Source of the DNA: a virus
Reading direction: 5' to 3' (one strand)
Virus record (IMG/VR): IMGVR_UViG_3300043823_000564
Coordinates: 1-36,354 of that record
Length of the DNA stretch: 36,354 nucleotides
Shown: positions 25,333-33,212 of the stretch, one piece after another
Layout of the letters: each line of letters starts with the position of its first letter
Numbering within the stretch: the stretch's first letter is position 1
Translations under genes and position numbers: made by a program
The notes under the pieces: model-generated
What the model was told of the DNA's origin: nothing
The model's database searches: none
The model's input: only the letters and a program-made list of their open reading frames with translations

Positions 25333-26010
25333 ATGTCAGTTTCATTAACAGCCAGCGGAATACAATTTGCAGATGGTACTACCCAGACATTACCTGCTGT
25401 AGATACTGGCGGATTAATATCAATAACTACATTTACATCATCGGGGACTTATACAGTACCATCTGGGTGCAGTAATATGTTGGTTAGATTAGTCGGCGGT
25501 GGCGGCGGTAGTTGCGGGTATTGCGAATCTGGCGGCGCCGGGGGATATTCCGAAAGTCTAGTAAACATATCAAGTGCAGGATTAACTGCTGGTTCCTCGG
25601 TTATCAATGTTACTGTTGGTGGTGGTGGTGGTGGTACTGGATATTATAGTGCTGCCGGCAATGGCGGAACAAGTAGTTTTGGCTCACTATGCAGCGCCAC
25701 TGGCGGAACTGGTGCAAATACCAGTTACGGTCATACTGGCGGATATGGGGGATCGGGATCTGGCGGACAGATTAATTTACAAGGTGGTGGCGGTTCGGGG
25801 CATGCAAACGGTTGCGGCTATGGTGGTATGGGCCGAGGTGGCGCAAGCTATTTTGGTAGTACTAAAGGTATTCAGCATCATTATGGCGGCCAAGTTGGTC
25901 CGGGAGCCCCGGGCTCAGGTTCAAGTGGTGGAAATACAGATGGCGGCCCGGGAGCAGGCAGCGGCAGTCAAGGTGCCAGTGGTGTAGTCATTGTTTATGC
26001 TTATTATTAA
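25333..26010 (+). CDS. Glycine-rich adhesin-like tail protein, copy 1 of 3
   Basis: 225 residues, three bases after the chaperone-bearing fibre. The N-terminal 20 residues carry the SLTASGIQFADGTTQ motif common in phage tail proteins. A TFTSSGTYTVPSG strand and VRLVGGGGG then lead into a Gly-dominated region of about 150 residues with motifs CGYCESGG, TSSFGSLCS, GSGSGGQINL and GGASYFGS, ending in GVVIVYAYY. Glycine-rich domains of this kind occur in phage distal-tail proteins, and the glycine-rich Gp38 adhesin of phage S16 forms polyglycine-II sandwiches that bind receptors. A similar fold and receptor-binding role is inferred from composition and position. Two paralogues follow directly. Confidence 0.75.
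   Translation: MSVSLTASGIQFADGTTQTLPAVDTGGLISITTFTSSGTYTVPSGCSNMLVRLVGGGGGSCGYCESGGAGGYSESLVNISSAGLTAGSSVINVTVGGGGGGTGYYSAAGNGGTSSFGSLCSATGGTGANTSYGHTGGYGGSGSGGQINLQGGGGSGHANGCGYGGMGRGGASYFGSTKGIQHHYGGQVGPGAPGSGSSGGNTDGGPGAGSGSQGASGVVIVYAYY
25424..25461 (+). repeat. 38-bp exact repeat shared by glycine-rich genes 1 and 2 (copy 1)
   Basis: Identical to 26114-26151. It encodes the TTFTSSGTYTVP strand just before the glycine-rich domain; the third paralogue has diverged here. Confidence 0.85.
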
Positions 26011-26022
26011 AAGAGACACAGT

Positions 26023-26676
26023 ATGACAGCAATAACACTAACAAGTACAGGTTTACAACAAGGTTCAAATACTTTAAATACTACCCCTGTTGATACGGGC
26101 GAGGCAGTATTAGTAACTACATTTACATCATCGGGGACTTATACAGTACCAAGTAATGCTACAACAATTTTAGTACAAATGGTAGGTGGTGGTGGTGGTG
26201 GTTGCGGTTATTGCGAATCTGGTGGTGGTGGTGGATATGCTGAAGGGATGTATAGTGTATCAGGCGGCGCACAATATTCAGTTACTGTAGGTGGTGGTGG
26301 TGGCGGAGCCGGGTATTATACTTCGCCATGCCCAGCGGGTGGAACAACTAGCTTTGGTTCACTCTTAAGTGCTAGTGGCGGTGGTGGAGCAAACTCTTAT
26401 ATAACCCACGCAGGTGGGCATGGGGGTTCTGGATCGGGCGGCCAAGTTAATTTAACTGGTGGGTCTGGCACAGGACATGTTAACCATGGATCGCACAATC
26501 AAAATTCAGATGGCGGTAGTTCTTATTTCGGTGGTGGCCCGGGACATATTAGAAGTCATCAAACACAGGGGTATTCATGGGCACCAGGTTCTGGCGGTTG
26601 TGGAGATATGACATACGGATACGGTAGTGGCGCATCGGGCGCATCAGGAATAGTAATCGTACACGCATTTATGTGA
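26023..26676 (+). CDS. Glycine-rich adhesin-like tail protein, copy 2 of 3
   Basis: 217 residues, 12 bases after copy 1. Same plan: TLTSTGLQQGSNT start, TFTSSGTYTVPS strand, VQMVGGGGGGCGYCESGGGGGYAEG, TTSFGSLLSASGGGGAN, GGSGSGGQVNLTGGSGTGH, a variable loop with SDGGSSYFGGG, and the hydrophobic end GIVIVHAFM. The region between about residues 140 and 195 (HGSHNQNSDGG, RSHQTQGYSWAPG) differs most from copies 1 and 3, as expected if exposed loops meet the receptor. The CGYCESGG motif is kept. Receptor-binding role is inferred. Confidence 0.72.
   Translation: MTAITLTSTGLQQGSNTLNTTPVDTGEAVLVTTFTSSGTYTVPSNATTILVQMVGGGGGGCGYCESGGGGGYAEGMYSVSGGAQYSVTVGGGGGGAGYYTSPCPAGGTTSFGSLLSASGGGGANSYITHAGGHGGSGSGGQVNLTGGSGTGHVNHGSHNQNSDGGSSYFGGGPGHIRSHQTQGYSWAPGSGGCGDMTYGYGSGASGASGIVIVHAFM
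26114..26151 (+). repeat. 38-bp exact repeat shared by glycine-rich genes 1 and 2 (copy 2)
   Basis: Identical to 25424-25461, at the same place in the paralogous gene. Confidence 0.85.
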
Positions 26677-26687
26677 GAATATAGAAT

Positions 26688-27368
26688 ATGGCAGTTACAT
26701 TAACAAGCACAGGCATAGTTTACTCAAACGGTGCAGCACAAAATACTTTAACACAAGATTTGGGATCTTTAATAAGTATTCAAACATTTTCGTCCAGTGG
26801 TACTTGGACTAACCCGGGTGCATCATTGGTTCGTGTAAAAATGGTAGGTGGTGGTGGCGGTGGCTGTGGGTATTGCGAATCCGGCGGGGCCGGTGGTTAT
26901 GCTGAGGGAATATATAGTGTATCAGGAGTTTCATCAGTTGGCGTTACTGTAGGTAGCGGTGGTGGTGGAGCTGGGTACTATCAAGGTTGCCCTGGTGGCG
27001 GCACAAGTAGTTTTGGTGGGTACTTATCGGCAAGTGGCGGCGGTGGCGCAAATACATACTCTACCCATTCGGGCGGTCATGGGGGTTCAGGATCCGGCGG
27101 CCAAATTAATTTAACAGGCTCAAGTGCCAGCGGACATTGCAATAGTAGTGGAGCCCACTCCGGTGGTCGTGGCGGCCAAAGTTATTTTGGTGGTGCAGCA
27201 TCACTGGTCAGAAATCACGGCAATAACGGTCTATACGGACCACAGCCATATGCAGGTGCTGGCGCCCCGGGATCTGGTGGCCCAGGGCAAATGACCGACG
27301 GATACTATGACGGAAACAGTAACGGATATGGCGCAAATGGCATAGTTATTGTTTACGCTTTTAAATAA
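26688..27368 (+). CDS. Glycine-rich adhesin-like tail protein, copy 3 of 3
   Basis: 226 residues, 11 bases after copy 2. It opens with TLTSTGIVYSNGAAQ, then TFSSSGTWTNPG (Trp and Asn-Pro replace Tyr and Val-Pro of the other copies), VKMVGGGGGGCGYCESGGAGGYAEG, TSSFGGYLSASGGGGAN, GGSGSGGQINLTG and GGRGGQSYFGG, ending in GIVIVYAFK. Its variable part (YDGNSNGYGANG, YGPQPYAGAGAPG) is distinct. It belongs to the same presumed late operon as the S74 fibre. Likely an alternative or additional distal adhesin; this is inference from paralogy and context. Confidence 0.72.
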   Translation: MAVTLTSTGIVYSNGAAQNTLTQDLGSLISIQTFSSSGTWTNPGASLVRVKMVGGGGGGCGYCESGGAGGYAEGIYSVSGVSSVGVTVGSGGGGAGYYQGCPGGGTSSFGGYLSASGGGGANTYSTHSGGHGGSGSGGQINLTGSSASGHCNSSGAHSGGRGGQSYFGGAASLVRNHGNNGLYGPQPYAGAGAPGSGGPGQMTDGYYDGNSNGYGANGIVIVYAFK

Positions 27369-27387: not shown

Positions 27388-27834
27388 ATGTTATCAGCAT
27401 TAATTCACTCATTAGAACCAGGTCGCATTTGCGATATTGTTCAACCAGGACAAGAATTTGAAGTCCATAGTAATTTTTCATGGGTAAATGTACCAGATGG
27501 TACAACCACATCGGATTCTTACGATCCAACAACTAATACAGTTACTACATTTGATCCACTAAGTGATCCTGCATACGCATCTCAGGCATACAAAGTAGCA
27601 CGACAAATTGCATACGGAAGTATTGGTGATCAATTAGATATGTTGCATAAAGAATTAACCAGCACAGGGTCTATTAGTCCAACGGGGCAGTGGGCAACAC
27701 AAATTTCCAATGCAAAATCGAATATTCCAAAAGATGATCCTTCTGCAGTTCACGCATGGAACATTTCTCAAGCACAACAAAATGCTGTTAACGCAAATGT
27801 AATAACAATTAATGGTGTTGTTAGCAATACTTAA
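27388..27834 (+). CDS. Small tail-associated protein with DQLDM-type C-terminal domain
   Basis: 149 residues from the ATG at 27388, chosen because AAAAGGA stands 7 bases upstream; an in-frame ATG at 27349 would overlap the previous gene and has no such site. The N-terminal half (GQEFEVHSNFSWVNVPDG) looks like a short beta domain. The C-terminal half carries ARQIAYGSIGDQLDMLHKEL...W...I..AKSNIPK, a pattern frequent in small phage tail-fibre-associated or fibre-assembly proteins. It is the last gene before a strong terminator. The precise function is unknown; an accessory or chaperone role for the adjacent adhesins is a guess from position. Confidence 0.6.
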   Translation: MLSALIHSLEPGRICDIVQPGQEFEVHSNFSWVNVPDGTTTSDSYDPTTNTVTTFDPLSDPAYASQAYKVARQIAYGSIGDQLDMLHKELTSTGSISPTGQWATQISNAKSNIPKDDPSAVHAWNISQAQQNAVNANVITINGVVSNT

Positions 27835-27861: not shown

Positions 27862-27895
27862 TTTAGCCCGGGCTTGTCCCGGGTTAAATATTTTT
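27862..27895 (+). terminator. Rho-independent terminator ending the fibre operon
   Basis: A 6-bp CCCGGG/CCCGGG core with CTTGT loop extends by TTTAG/TTAAA (four A-T pairs and one G-U) to an 11-bp stem and is followed by TATTTTT. It separates the structural block from the enzyme cassette. Confidence 0.88.
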
Positions 27896-27918: not shown

Positions 27919-29181
27919 ATGAATTTCAATAAACGCTTTTCAGTTGCACACTTTGATAGATTTCACGGCGACTATTCGAGTATATTTTATACAATAATGA
28001 AAAATGCCAAACCGAGTTATTTGGCTAATATACACGACATTTATTTTGGAAAATTTTTCTATTATGAATATAACGGAGAACAAAAACGTTGTGGCAATCC
28101 GATGGGAGTTGAAGCCAGCGATGAGCAAGTAGATTACTTGTTTAGATTGCAAGAAGAGACCGGTGTTGAAATTAGTTTAACATTTAATACAGTTGAAGTT
28201 CCGCACGAAGTAGCGTTTGACCCAAAAATAACTGAACAATTTGTTGAATGGATTGGTAGTTACTATGATCGCGGATTGCGTAGTTGCACAATAAGCAGTG
28301 AACACATCATGCGGATGGGATGGTTGCAAGATCGTTGTCCAGATATGCGTTGGAAATCAACAGTTAATCAAATCTGCGCTGATGCACAACAATTCATTGA
28401 TATGGCATACTTAGGTTATAACACTATTAACTTAGATCGTAGCTTGAACAGAAACATTAAAGAATTAAAACGCATTAAACGTGCTCAAGATTATCTCAAC
28501 AGTAAAAATCCAAAGAAAAAAGTATTAACAGTATTGTTAGTAGCCGAAGCTTGCATTTATCATTGTCCATTTAAGAAAGAACATGATAGTGTTGGCGAAG
28601 TTATTAGCGGAAGCTATTTTAGAGATTACGCAGATTTGAGTTGTAATGCATGGCGCAATGTTCCGGAGTTTGCTGCAAGTCCTCGCTCGGGAATTAATAT
28701 TGTTGCTAATACTAAAGAAACATTTAAACAATATGGAGATTTAGTAGACATATTTAAATATTCTGGACGTTTAACAGATGCAAGTCATATTCCGTCAGAA
28801 GCAAAACATTTAAGAGCTTCGTGGTATTTTGCACAAGGCAAGAGTAAATTTAAACAAGCAACTACTGTTGGCACAACAATTTTTGCAGATGACTTTGCAG
28901 AAATCTACGAAAACAATCTTGGTCCAATACACGATTGGTTACCGGGGTGGATTGATACACGCTTGTCGGTTGATGACTGGCGCACAACGTATAAACCATA
29001 TGATACAATATGGGCAACGCCACCGGGACAAAAATTAGAAAAACTATTATTAAATTGTCGCAGTCAATGTTGGGATTGTCACGAATGTGAGAAAGTATTT
29101 GGCATGCAAGAAGTTGATTCTGCGCTACAAATGCGTAAAGTATACACACCACCAACTATGATATTGCGGGATATGCGATGA
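27919..29181 (+). CDS. U32-like Fe-S TIM-barrel protein, probable tailoring enzyme
   Basis: 420 residues, start supported by AGGAC 10 bases upstream. The first 300 residues have the alternating pattern of a TIM barrel. A Cys pair C212-x3-C216 in EACIYHCPFKKEH follows a NLDRSLNRN segment, and the C-terminus has a four-Cys cluster C380-x3-C384-x2-C387-x2-C390 (CRSQCWDCHEC). This arrangement recalls the U32 peptidase-like superfamily, whose studied members (RlhA, TrhP, UbiU/UbiV) hold 4Fe-4S clusters and take part in hydroxylation of RNA or ubiquinone precursors, not proteolysis. The canonical radical-SAM CxxxCxxC is not at the N-terminus. It overlaps the next gene by ATGA, implying translational coupling. 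Family placement is from pattern memory and moderate; substrate is unknown. Confidence 0.55.
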   Translation: MNFNKRFSVAHFDRFHGDYSSIFYTIMKNAKPSYLANIHDIYFGKFFYYEYNGEQKRCGNPMGVEASDEQVDYLFRLQEETGVEISLTFNTVEVPHEVAFDPKITEQFVEWIGSYYDRGLRSCTISSEHIMRMGWLQDRCPDMRWKSTVNQICADAQQFIDMAYLGYNTINLDRSLNRNIKELKRIKRAQDYLNSKNPKKKVLTVLLVAEACIYHCPFKKEHDSVGEVISGSYFRDYADLSCNAWRNVPEFAASPRSGINIVANTKETFKQYGDLVDIFKYSGRLTDASHIPSEAKHLRASWYFAQGKSKFKQATTVGTTIFADDFAEIYENNLGPIHDWLPGWIDTRLSVDDWRTTYKPYDTIWATPPGQKLEKLLLNCRSQCWDCHECEKVFGMQEVDSALQMRKVYTPPTMILRDMR

Positions 29182-29768
29182 ATGATATAAAAATATTTGA
29201 TAATGTATTACCTAAAGGTTATGCAGACCAAATCGAATTAGATATTTCTCGCACAGGATTTCCGTGGTTTTATATTGATGATGTTACTAATAAAAATTAT
29301 GGGAATAATGCGGGCTTAGTGCATCCGGCTTATGATTTCAATGAAGAACCGAGTCAATGGCATCCATTTATTAGACCGTTAATATATACAGTTGAAGAAT
29401 TGAATCAAGTTCCGATTACTCAATTATTAAGAATACGTGTGGGACTCTTGACAAAAAACAATGGAGATAGTAGTATATACAATACTCCGCACATAGATTT
29501 TACTGTTCCGCATTATACAGCGTGTTATTATGTTAATGACAGTGATGGAGATACTGTAATATTTGATCAAAAACTTTCGGACTTGGGTTCTGCAGAACAT
29601 AATGAACAGAATATAAAAAAATATGTAGAGCAGGCAAAATTTACAGTTGCTAAGAGATGTTCGCCTAATAAAAATAGTCTTTGTATTTTTAATGGGGAAA
29701 GATTTCATTCAAGTTCGATGCCCACAACACATAACAAACGTTTCGTAATTTCAATAAATTACCTTTAA
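29178..29768 (+). CDS. 2-oxoglutarate/Fe(II)-dependent oxygenase (prolyl-hydroxylase-like)
   Basis: 196 residues. The facial triad is visible: His105 and Asp107 in TPHIDFTVPHYTACYYVND, and His177 in FNGERFHSSSMPTTHNKR, with Arg188 eleven residues later as probable 2-oxoglutarate carboxylate ligand. Length and the ACYYVNDSDGDTVIFD strand fit the small 2OG oxygenases found in T4-like phages, which resemble prolyl 4-hydroxylases. The enzyme would couple decarboxylation of 2-oxoglutarate to hydroxylation of a protein, peptide or small molecule. The start overlaps the U32-like stop (ATGA), and the halogenase follows after 8 bases, so the three are one translational unit. Substrate unknown. Confidence 0.85.
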   Translation: MNDIKIFDNVLPKGYADQIELDISRTGFPWFYIDDVTNKNYGNNAGLVHPAYDFNEEPSQWHPFIRPLIYTVEELNQVPITQLLRIRVGLLTKNNGDSSIYNTPHIDFTVPHYTACYYVNDSDGDTVIFDQKLSDLGSAEHNEQNIKKYVEQAKFTVAKRCSPNKNSLCIFNGERFHSSSMPTTHNKRFVISINYL

Positions 29769-29776
29769 GGAAAAAA

Positions 29777-31396
29777 ATGTATCATAATATCAAATCAGTT
29801 TTAATTGTAGGCGGCGGATCAAGCGGTTGGATGACTGCTGCTGCTATTGCTAAACGTTTACCAAACATTAAATTAACATTAGTGGAAAGTCCTAATATTC
29901 CCACTATTGGTGTTGGTGAAAGTACAATTGGTCATATCAATCAATTTTTAGATTTGTTAGAATTAAAAGATGAAGATTGGATGCCACATTGTAATGCAAC
30001 CTATAAGACATCTATCAAGTTTTTAGACTTTAGAGAAAATCCTACAGAAAAACCACACACTTTTCATTATCCTTTTGGTATATTTGATTTCACTGATAAG
30101 CCGCGTAATCTTATGGATTGGTTCTTAGCCAGACTCAATGATCCAAGCATCGATTGTAGTAATTTTGCTGAATTCTATCATGACAGTATATTAATGACGG
30201 ATAAAAATAAACTTACACGCAACGAAGATTTTAAATTGCGCGGATTTGATTTTAGATATGATACAGCATACCACATGGATGCTACAGCATTTGGTATGTA
30301 TTTGCGTGATCATATTTGTTTACCGTCTGGTATGACACACATCTTAGATACAGTAACAGATGCTACATTAGATGCCAATGGATGCATTAATCAGATTTTA
30401 ACAGAAAATTCTGGGCCATTGACTGCTGACCTTTATGTTGACTGCACCGGATTCAAATCCCTATTGCTTGAACAAAAAATGGGAGTTGAATTCAAACCAT
30501 TTAAGAGTACTTTATTAAATGATAGTGCTATTGCAACAACTATTCCGTATATTGACAAACCGGCAGAAATGGAAAATTATACTAGCTGTACTGCAATTGA
30601 GTGTGGGTGGGTATGGAATATTCCACTGTGGCATCGTATTGGTACAGGATATGTGTACTCAAGTGATTTTGCTACTCAAGCAGAAGCTGAAGAACAGTTT
30701 AGACGTCATCTGGCTAGCAACCGCATGATTTTCGGTGATGCAAAACGTGCAGAAGCAGCCGAGTTAAGACATATTAAAATGAAGCACGGTGTACATGACC
30801 ATGCATGGGAGAAAAATGTTGTTGGTGTGGGATTATCCAATGGATTCATTGAACCGCTTGAATCAACAGGTTTAATGTTAACCCACGAAGCTATTGTTAA
30901 ATTAGTGTCGACGCTTACAATGCGCAACGGGCATGTTACACAGTTTGATGTTGATTTATTTAACCATGCATTTAGTGAACAAATTCTTGGATTTAAAGAT
31001 TTTATTAGCCAGCACTATGCATTAAGTATGCGTAACGATACACCATATTGGAAAAAAATTACCGGCGAGATATCATTCAGTCCACAAATGAATCATTTTG
31101 ACGCAGAATTATATAACTCATACCCGGATTTAGCATATCGCTTACACCGTTCGAGATTATTTGACACAGCAATGTCGGGGATTGTATATATAGCTGCGGG
31201 AATGGGATATAGCCCAATGGATAAAGCTAATAAAGATTTCTTAGATAAGAAATATAATGAAAATCCAGATTCGGCAACTGAAGTATATAACAAATGGTTG
31301 CAACATAGAGATGATGTGTTAGCAGAAATCGAAAAAATGCCTACGCACTATGAATTTTTAAAAACAGAAATACATATGAATAACAATCCTGATTAA
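29777..31396 (+). CDS. FAD-dependent tryptophan-halogenase-like protein
   Basis: 539 residues, usual length for flavin-dependent halogenases, with AAGGAAAAAA just before the start. Visible hallmarks: the FAD-binding GGGSSGWM at 12-19; PTIGVGEST at 42-50; the lysine of YKTSIKF (Lys77), matching PrnA Lys79 that handles hypochlorous acid; the halogenase signature W278-V-W280-N-I282-P283; and EPLES at 359-363, whose Glu362/Ser363 match PrnA Glu346/Ser347. It should oxidise halide with FADH2 and O2 and halogenate an electron-rich aromatic; cyanophage Syn10 VirX1 is a known viral relative in function. No flavin reductase lies in the window, so host FADH2 is presumably used. Its stop is shared in a hairpin loop with the convergent Nudix gene. 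True substrate and halide unknown. Confidence 0.9.
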   Translation: MYHNIKSVLIVGGGSSGWMTAAAIAKRLPNIKLTLVESPNIPTIGVGESTIGHINQFLDLLELKDEDWMPHCNATYKTSIKFLDFRENPTEKPHTFHYPFGIFDFTDKPRNLMDWFLARLNDPSIDCSNFAEFYHDSILMTDKNKLTRNEDFKLRGFDFRYDTAYHMDATAFGMYLRDHICLPSGMTHILDTVTDATLDANGCINQILTENSGPLTADLYVDCTGFKSLLLEQKMGVEFKPFKSTLLNDSAIATTIPYIDKPAEMENYTSCTAIECGWVWNIPLWHRIGTGYVYSSDFATQAEAEEQFRRHLASNRMIFGDAKRAEAAELRHIKMKHGVHDHAWEKNVVGVGLSNGFIEPLESTGLMLTHEAIVKLVSTLTMRNGHVTQFDVDLFNHAFSEQILGFKDFISQHYALSMRNDTPYWKKITGEISFSPQMNHFDAELYNSYPDLAYRLHRSRLFDTAMSGIVYIAAGMGYSPMDKANKDFLDKKYNENPDSATEVYNKWLQHRDDVLAEIEKMPTHYEFLKTEIHMNNNPD

Positions 31397-31406
31397 CTCA
31401 GGATTG
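31384..31406. terminator. Hairpin at the convergent gene junction
   Basis: A 9-bp perfect stem CAATCCTGA / TCAGGATTG encloses TTAAC. The loop's TTAA supplies the stop codon of the halogenase on the plus strand and of the Nudix gene on the minus strand. U-tracts are weak on both sides, so bidirectional termination is plausible but not certain. Confidence 0.6.
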
Positions 31407-31821
31407 ATTCTAACGTCTTAATTTTCTTTTTAACAATATCAAAATTAAAACTGCGCCATAGACCGGGATGTAACGGTCTAGGGTGATCATCCAATTCAAC
31501 CCAACAGTATCCGCGATGTTCATCGTTTAACGCAGGAACAAATTCACGATCGCAATCCACTAAGAAAGTATAGTAAACAAATTTACGATTGTCTGCTGTA
31601 AACGTTTCCAATGGAATAAATTTCTTCTTAGTAAAATCCTGTCCAATCTCTTCTTGTATCTCGCGAACTAATGCTTGTATAACAGTTTCACCGCCATCAA
31701 TCTTGCCGCCAACTATACCCCATTGACCAGCACTACGATGTTTATTACGTAACAAGAAAAGATAACGATTGGTTGATTTGGCATAGACTAATGCGCCCAC
31801 ACCTTCTGTATGGTCAGCCAT
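31393..31821 (-). CDS. Nudix hydrolase
   Basis: 142 residues with a complete Nudix box at 39-61: Gly39, Glu45, Arg53-Glu54, Glu57-Glu58 and Gly60 (GGKIDGGE...REIQEEIGQ), the Mg-binding catalytic helix. The preceding QWGIVGGK strand is also typical. Nudix enzymes hydrolyse nucleoside diphosphates linked to another moiety; in phages the roles include dNTP clean-up, ADP-ribose turnover or mRNA decapping. The substrate cannot be read from the sequence. The start overlaps the gp15 stop by one base (TAATG), so it is translated with the neck/tail genes, an unusual late-operon position for a nucleotide enzyme. It ends at the convergent hairpin. Confidence 0.9.
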   Translation of the reverse strand: MADHTEGVGALVYAKSTNRYLFLLRNKHRSAGQWGIVGGKIDGGETVIQALVREIQEEIGQDFTKKKFIPLETFTADNRKFVYYTFLVDCDREFVPALNDEHRGYCWVELDDHPRPLHPGLWRSFNFDIVKKKIKTLESILS

Positions 31822-33212
31822 TAGATTACTAAACTCCAGGATCCTGGGCGATATATACCCAATCCAGCAACTACCCAGTTACTACCTGTCCACTCATATT
31901 GTGAATTAGTGTTCATATTAGTAATGTACTGTATGCCCGGATTGTTTTCACTATCAAACGCAACTACCCAATAGCTACCATTGTATTGAATGATATCATT
32001 GGCATTAGCTACTAAATTAGTACCAGCAGGGCCATTCCATGCAGTACCGGTTACAGTATCGTTGGACCCAATTGGATTTACTATTAGATATCTTGTACCT
32101 GAACTGATACCGGTTAAGTATGTTTGTACATTTACGTTATATGGGTCAATAATAGCATTAACCGCAGGCAATGTGTTAGCTGGTGATGTTTGAGAGTCTG
32201 GGCTAAACAATAGCTGTGTGCCATTGGTTGGATTAAACGCAACAGTACCAACTAATTCATGTGGGCCATCAGGATATTCAAACGTTAAACGAACTTGACT
32301 GGTGCCATTAACTAATTTACCGTAGAGATTAATTAAATTTTCCCACGGTGCTGGAGTACCTTCTGTGCCGTCGCCGGAGATAGTTGAATATAGTGTTAAA
32401 TATCCTGTAGTACTTGGTCCCGACGGTCCGCTGTACACAACAGAGTAATTCATTGGTGTATAACGTAATTGACTTGTGCTGGCAATATCGATGATATCAC
32501 CCGAGAAGCTACCTGTATCATCATAAATGTTAGCAATAATTTGTTGCACAACTCCGCCCTTTTGTACCTTGGCTGGTGTACTAATCCAAATTGGCATTTC
32601 AAATTCAAGTGTAGCGATATCAATAGTAACATCATCGCTGGCCATTGGGATTGATCTGTTTGTATAAGTAGTGCTAACTATTTCGGCAACAGTTAAGCTG
32701 GTCCAATCGACATAATTATCTGTGCTTTGTATTTCAAAGCCGGGATTAAACAGTGGAGTAATTTGTTCAATGAGTTGCCATTTTTGATCTAAGTTGCTGG
32801 TCCAAATATCTAACTTCATTGATAGTTTATACGGAGCAGGCATATATCTACTAACAGTATATTGGCCATCTTGTGTGCCGGTATATTGTTGTGTAGTAGC
32901 ATCGTATACTTGTTCGCGAATACGCATAGTGCCTTCGTAATACGGATTTAATAAACGAGAACGATCGTAATTTAACGCAGAAACATATACAGCCATAGCA
33001 GGAACAGCACTTAGCATATTCTCACTGTTGTTTTTTAAGATAACGCTGGCTTGGCGACTTGGGTCTCCATAATAAACAGGTACAGTTTGTAGTGTTTTGG
33101 AACCATCAGAATCTTGTCCAAATTCAACTTGGAAATTTGATACCATACGAATAAACTGTATGATAAATCTACGGACTTGTCCGTCATAGTGGAATGGGAC
33201 TACATTTGCCAT
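31821..33212 (-). CDS. 15: Tail sheath stabiliser/completion protein, T4 gp15-like, with enlarged C-terminus
   Basis: 463 residues against 272 in T4 gp15. The first 240 residues follow the gp15 pattern: VRRFIIQFIRMVSNFQVEF, TVPVYYGDPSRQ, SRYMPAPYKLSMKLDIWTSN, QLIEQITPLFNPGFEI, and EFEMPIWISTPAKV, matching T4 blocks such as YNPSPIKMIYELSIFTR and VEQILPYFQPHF. Gp15 forms the hexameric ring that caps the tail tube and sheath and joins the neck. The remaining 220 residues are extra beta-rich sequence with two Y/W-rich motifs (IIQYNGSYWVV, QYEWTGSNWVV) like those in phage fibre proteins. It follows gp14 by 2 bases, the T4 order. Assignment by motif comparison from memory. Confidence 0.75.
   Translation of the reverse strand: MANVVPFHYDGQVRRFIIQFIRMVSNFQVEFGQDSDGSKTLQTVPVYYGDPSRQASVILKNNSENMLSAVPAMAVYVSALNYDRSRLLNPYYEGTMRIREQVYDATTQQYTGTQDGQYTVSRYMPAPYKLSMKLDIWTSNLDQKWQLIEQITPLFNPGFEIQSTDNYVDWTSLTVAEIVSTTYTNRSIPMASDDVTIDIATLEFEMPIWISTPAKVQKGGVVQQIIANIYDDTGSFSGDIIDIASTSQLRYTPMNYSVVYSGPSGPSTTGYLTLYSTISGDGTEGTPAPWENLINLYGKLVNGTSQVRLTFEYPDGPHELVGTVAFNPTNGTQLLFSPDSQTSPANTLPAVNAIIDPYNVNVQTYLTGISSGTRYLIVNPIGSNDTVTGTAWNGPAGTNLVANANDIIQYNGSYWVVAFDSENNPGIQYITNMNTNSQYEWTGSNWVVAGLGIYRPGSWSLVI

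Follow-up and report, generated by a model that had tools for sequence, protein, structure and literature searches.

VirX1, the halogenase of cyanophage Syn10, has a large open active site that accepts bulky substrates, and it halogenates many small aromatics (PMC8407142); its natural substrate is not stated in the literature searched. Phage halogenases are treated as auxiliary metabolic or antibiotic-protection genes (PMC10452541, PMC9964418, PMC2984593), and the 2-oxoglutarate (2OG) oxygenase genes of cyanophages have been assigned roles related to nitrogen or to DNA repair (PMC3037559, PMC9146016). U32 proteins that have been characterised carry [4Fe-4S] clusters and act in O2-independent hydroxylations (PMC6747719, PMC10470549); for RlhA, prephenate may serve as the oxygen donor (PMC10470549). 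In the fibre of phage Pam3, the glycine-rich domain consists of six loops on glycine-rich stems, whose variable tips are the proposed receptor contacts, and this fibre is bound by a chaperone that combines a beta-sandwich with a helical part (PMC9608196). The stretch of DNA analysed here (the window) is an IMG/VR virus record of 36,354 bases from an aquatic phage, IMGVR_UViG_3300043823_000564, in which genes for a U32-like protein, a 2OG-Fe(II) oxygenase and a VirX1-clade halogenase lie downstream of glycine-rich fibre genes (Table 1). On balance, and with all of the chemistry inferred, we favour the view that these enzymes form a module that oxidatively tailors the receptor-binding tip of the fibre.

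Gene order in the window runs from large fibre-like open reading frames (ORFs) through three glycine-rich tips, the small fibre-linked protein X161 and the three enzymes to a convergent Nudix hydrolase, which is probably not part of the module, and T4-type tail genes. As the first-pass annotation had it, the three enzyme ORFs share one strand and are joined by an ATGA overlap (29178-29181) and an 8-base gap (29769-29776), and the catalytic residues that it named for the oxygenase and the halogenase are present in the translations. Its placing of the genes beside phage fibre genes also holds, since three fibre-tip paralogues, recognised by PHROG (tail fibre) and Pfam (Gly_rich_2), lie directly upstream.

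A search of IMG/VR for conserved adjacency, which the same annotation had proposed, was run with the U32-like protein and returned 54 loci at 58-78% identity. In all 54 the halogenase gene lies directly downstream of the U32-like gene or follows the 2OG gene. After dereplication at 90% identity, the U32-like and halogenase genes occur together in every cluster (24/24), their junctions being overlaps or gaps only a few bases long, and are thus tightly and persistently coupled, whereas 15 clusters have the 2OG gene and 9 lack it. The core is therefore two genes, with the 2OG gene as an optional third member; as to whether the genes might be found mostly apart in relatives, the pair is not, and the 2OG gene keeps its place in 15/24 only. 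X161 and glycine-rich paralogues are found upstream of the pair wherever the contig extends far enough. A scan in the other direction, with the halogenase as query, recovered the same clade plus more distant members. Two loci (L316, L317) have the rearranged order fibres-halogenase-X161-U32 and retain the set.

Seven marine cyanophages (syn9, S-CREM1, Sf-FP1, S-WAM1, S-SZBM1, P-RSM6 and P-TIM40) have fibres, a small gene in the place of X161, one or two halogenases, and 2OG genes. A U32 gene was found in 0/13 halogenase-bearing cyanophage isolate genomes. In P-SSM4, Syn19 and Syn33 a U32-methyltransferase fusion adjoins the fibres, and a whole-genome search of these three phages found no halogenase. 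The 2OG gene directly follows such a fusion in 56/75 loci, and a halogenase lies near the fusion in 0/83 loci, within the stretches examined. An obligate three-enzyme system is not supported by these counts; the enzymes look like interchangeable tailoring modules hung on fibre genes. The U32-like barrel with a C-terminal methyltransferase-like domain (e.g., L003 12592-14157; L098-L177) gave 476 matches and is very common in marine contigs.

The link between halogenase and fibre was counted in 55 VirX1-clade halogenase clusters (90% identity), for 46 of which the upstream sequence is about 2.2 kb or longer. A glycine-rich fibre ORF lies within 4 kb of the halogenase in 44/46 of these dereplicated loci (tallied by hand from the table; 3 of the 44 were recognised by the fibre profile and not by the 20% glycine rule), against background values of 6.2% of positions for S-WAM1 and 6.5% for syn9. 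Near four more distant phage halogenases the count is 0/4. In isolates, which were searched by profile, the fibre family is present in 8/9 genomes with a VirX1-clade halogenase versus 1/16 others (25 isolates; Fisher p = 7e-5), and a profile built from metagenome contigs only gives the same result. The link survives other gene orders, as in the rearranged L316 and L317 and in L330, where the fibres are inverted. Halogenases of the clade also stand beside other glycine-rich proteins (29-36% Gly) in L315 (7944-9047), L318 (7918-9270) and L334 (1178-1984). The L334 contig looks podovirus-like.

The glycine-rich genes themselves point to a candidate site. In the window fibres the first glycine-rich stretch reads GGGGGG-CGYCES-GGAGG, and from this pattern the stretch may be loop 1 of a Pam3-type fold, with CGYCES at its tip. 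A [YHFV]-x-E motif stands at this tip in 94/97 halogenase-linked fibres (dereplicated at 85% identity), with Tyr62 and Glu64 invariant in 18 aligned fibres, whereas halogenase-free phages, in few independent cases, have RxNDNxYRG or WSYGAE at the same place. Because the tip is conserved where variability is expected, the motif suggests an enzyme recognition or modification site. Broken or recombined glycine-rich paralogues lie beside intact ones in the S-CREM1 record (54647-55291) and in syn9 (31149-32327), suggesting cassette exchange among fibre tips.

A mechanism may be proposed in which the glycine-rich proteins are the distal adhesin of the tail fibre and X161 probably assists their folding. 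The halogenase would make a hypohalous acid (HOX) from its flavin via Lys77 and halogenate an aromatic side chain at the surface, the likeliest being the conserved Tyr or His of the loop-1 tip. The U32-like Fe-S protein, together with the 2OG oxygenase where present, would hydroxylate this tip as well or mark it oxidatively in a related way. Such marks would fix or diversify the receptor contact, or harden the tip. Tight coupling had been taken by the first-pass annotation to imply one shared substrate; the coupling of the U32-like and halogenase genes stands, and a single substrate may be supposed. Among the three kinds of substrate that it offered, a virion protein has gained strong evidence from context, in the form of the glycine-rich fibre tip. 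We put forward more tentatively, as a possibility, that the adjoining enzymes attach halogen (iodine, bromine or chlorine) to the tip of the receptor-binding protein and also oxidise that tip, with the U32-like protein acting on protein, and that this is the natural role of VirX1-type halogenases.

Several observations weigh against a fibre substrate. Support for it comes from gene order, conservation, families, folds and a motif. Because the loci share descent, their counts lack independence, and the isolates were picked on halogenase hits; these numbers are therefore guides. Only three of the fibre clusters that match the same profile are halogenase-free or unlinked. The tip motif could be structural. 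In the window a strong terminator-like hairpin parts the fibre module from the enzyme genes. Accessory genes are known to accumulate in fibre regions, and the three enzymes could have hitch-hiked into such a hot spot, each with an unrelated substrate in host metabolism or DNA repair. This would suit the cyanophage 2OG genes, which are scattered and have been read in such terms (PMC3037559, PMC9146016), as well as two loci without fibre adjacency: in S-B64 the halogenase is far from the fibre gene, whose tip is of the NDN type, and in L335 it is away from any glycine-rich fibre. The constancy of the pair (24/24, with tight junctions, and kept in another order in L316 and L317) and the association of fibres with the VirX1 clade but not with the four distant halogenases make hitch-hiking distinctly improbable.

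The enzymes might otherwise make or modify a small molecule, such as a halogenated indole or a peptide-like metabolite, that aids the infected cell or poisons competitors, the position beside the fibres being historical. Free small aromatics are the usual substrates of characterised relatives, the activity of VirX1 on many of them is documented (PMC8407142), and the literature on cyanophages has suggested that the host is protected against antibiotics (PMC9964418, PMC2984593). Nevertheless, no other biosynthetic gene, reductase, transporter or carrier protein was recognised in the cassette, and the glycine-rich fibre link persists across rearrangements and differing phage types; we regard this explanation as unlikely. 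A further one, that a host surface molecule (a glycan or outer-membrane component) is modified towards the end of infection, serving superinfection exclusion or release, would account for enzyme genes among receptor-binding genes and for the MptE-like/FkbM methyltransferase genes and weak sialyltransferase-like match added in some relatives. It is very improbable, as no membrane or export part was recognised by eye in the three proteins, and flavin, O2 and Fe-S chemistry would point to the cytoplasm.

Assignment of the halogenase is clear. It matches Pfam Trp_halogenase (PF04820) with an E-value of 2e-104 (350 bits versus a cut-off of 21) and PHROG 2928 with 2e-146, and its closest solved relative is VirX1 (PDB 6qgm, E 1e-146). 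The motifs GGGSSG (12), Lys77, WVWNIP (278) and PLEST (360) are present; catalytic motifs are largely invariant across 15 diverse relatives, and Lys77 is invariant in all 15. The protein is thus a PF04820 enzyme of the VirX1 clade, with halogenating activity predicted.

The U32-like protein required a less direct route. No Pfam or NCBIfam model matches it, a direct PF01136 match was found in 0/40 family members, and hhalign with a thin profile gave a probability of only 2% against E. coli UbiU, UbiV, TrhP and RlhA. Its AlphaFold (AF2) model (pLDDT 80.6) has as its best match among 350,542 PDB chains the U32 peptidase Mk0906 (E 1.4e-6, TM (target) 0.68), and a phage ‘peptidase’ is among the best viral structure matches. 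The family profile also matches bacterial proteins of about 360 amino acids, in 15/395 genomes of the phylum of one match, and several of these exceed the PF01136 cut-off (best 52 versus 22.4 bits). Seven of the 11 Cys of the window protein (212, 216, 242, 380, 384, 387 and 390) are invariant across 40 homologues, down to 25% identity, and the bacterial proteins that pass PF01136 carry the same seven together with Glu210 and His222. Spacing of these residues (C-x3-C-x25-C plus C-x3-C-x2-C-x2-C) differs from the CX6CX15CX3/4C motif of U32 proteins (PMC6747719). Because of the fold match and the bacterial intermediates, the protein is regarded as U32-related, from a branch with its own Cys pattern, in agreement with the redox Fe-S family first proposed for it. 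It is a probable [4Fe-4S] redox enzyme, hydroxylase-like; by analogy with characterised U32 proteins it would bind such a cluster and hydroxylate independently of O2. Radical SAM identity was considered, as CIYHCPFK resembles CxxxCxxC minus the third Cys, and was ruled out, this stretch following a late barrel strand as in U32 and no radical SAM family matching.

Cellular relatives of the U32-like protein were found in L199 and L200 (metagenome-assembled genomes of Deltaproteobacteria/Proteobacteria) and in L257-L262. The one in L259 (5300-6373) directly follows a classical-looking U32 gene, and others lie, as read by eye, near molybdenum-hydroxylase-like genes. As these contexts vary, only ‘redox’ can be said of function.

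In the 2OG protein, HID at residues 105-107 and His177 make up the HxD...H iron triad. It matches PHROG 274 (E 3e-39) and falls below the Pfam cut-off (PF13640, 19.8 bits versus 27). Searching viral contigs with exact peptide patterns from this protein gave one distant match. The name ‘DNA endonuclease V (DenV)’ and a DNA-repair role were rejected for this gene, as only 2OG families match and Pfam gives no hit to a pyrimidine-dimer glycosylase or endonuclease V family. The DenV name is widespread for 2OG-Fe(II) oxygenases in cyanophage records (PHROG 274; NC_006884.2 36153-36662; NC_008296.2 gp51/gp53), apparently in error.

X161 lies, in relatives, between the glycine-rich genes and the enzyme genes. 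Its ORF is listed from a TTG at 27349, but the Met at 27388 is invariant. The AF2 model (pLDDT 85.6) predicts an N-terminal beta part and C-terminal helices, and a fold search of the PDB, solved chaperones included, gave no match; X161 as a proven fibre chaperone was accordingly dropped, and such a role is a possible guess. The spacer between X161 and the U32-like gene is 84 bases in the window versus 2-39 bases in 45/46 relatives. The hairpin in this spacer, which the first-pass annotation had not mentioned, is peculiar to the window record among those compared.

Table 1. Features of the fibre and enzyme gene region of the window.
Feature	Position	Strand	Remarks
Glycine-rich fibre tip 1, 225 aa	25333..26010	+	Gly_rich_2 E 7e-9; PHROG 863 tail fibre; CGYCES 25513-25530
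Glycine-rich fibre tip 2, 217 aa	26023..26676	+	Paralogue, 61% identical to tip 3; CGYCES 26203-26220
Glycine-rich fibre tip 3, 226 aa	26688..27368	+	CGYCES 26865-26882
X161, small fibre-linked protein, 148 aa from conserved Met	27388..27834	+	PHROG 1787
Terminator-like hairpin, 11 pairs then T run	27862..27888	+	Spacer folds at -25.5 kcal/mol
U32-like TIM-barrel protein, 420 aa	27919..29181	+	AF2 pTM 0.83; PDB fold match 5d88; PF01136 via intermediates
2OG-Fe(II) oxygenase, 196 aa	29178..29768	+	His105/Asp107/His177; PHROG 274
FAD-dependent halogenase, VirX1 clade, 539 aa	29777..31396	+	PF04820, PHROG 2928, VirX1 6qgm
Nudix hydrolase, convergent neighbour	31393..31821	-	Pfam; position kept in part of clade

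Beyond the Nudix gene, the tail sheath stabiliser (31821-33212, minus strand) has a long C-terminal extension past the T4 gp15 domain, the Pfam match spanning residues 8-237 of 463. Many relatives have an extra gene of 228-246 amino acids (PHROG 30607) between halogenase and Nudix (L006 4493-5230, L010 13463-14197), which the window lacks. In L009 (13490-16328) a 709-aa MptE-like/FkbM methyltransferase protein and a second 2OG gene follow the halogenase, placing more tailoring genes at the same spot. The cassette is also present in jumbo-size phage contigs (IMGVR_UViG_3300043418_000072, 354 kb; IMGVR_UViG_3300046092_000062, 321 kb). Neither psbA nor psbD was found in the 11 records that carry the cassette or a close homologue; as these include the two jumbo-size contigs, their hosts may not be cyanobacteria, and a cyanobacterial host was not upheld.

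Phage halogenases and many cyanophage 2OG oxygenases are now filed as auxiliary metabolic genes without known substrate. The fibre link and a tip motif that tracks the halogenase provide a concrete hypothesis that is cheaply testable on existing isolates. If it is true, phages edit their own adhesins by chemical means; this would explain the purpose of phage halogenases and would bear on host range, on the enzymology of protein halogenation and on U32 proteins as protein-modifying enzymes. Viral post-translational modification of this class is not described in the literature searched, nor is the fibre-linked enzyme combination or a fibre substrate, in a search that did not cover the primary description of VirX1. 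The enzyme families themselves are already known.

Compared with UbiU/UbiV, RlhA and TrhP, the U32-like protein shares the barrel fold, the clustering of Cys behind a late barrel strand and the expected redox Fe-S role, but differs in Cys spacing, in the lack of a direct Pfam hit and in its phage context. The U32-methyltransferase fusion (T4-GC 354, PHROG 1458 type) has a homologous barrel (25-29% identity) and likewise stands beside fibre genes, but carries a methyltransferase-like domain and has no halogenase near it in the stretches examined of 83 loci. Pam3 gp24/gp25 and the S16 gp38 tip resemble the window fibres in their glycine-rich loops between GGGGxGG stretches and in an adjoining small helper protein; by contrast, no tailoring enzymes are described for Pam3 (PMC9608196), and X161 has no fold match to a solved chaperone. 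The VirX1-type isolates differ in that the U32-like gene paired with the window halogenase is missing from syn9 and from 12 further halogenase-bearing isolates. With VirX1 itself the window halogenase shares clade and catalytic motifs, its match in the Syn10 genome being 45.6% identical over 98%, and in syn9, too, glycine-rich fibre genes and a homologue of X161 precede the halogenase.

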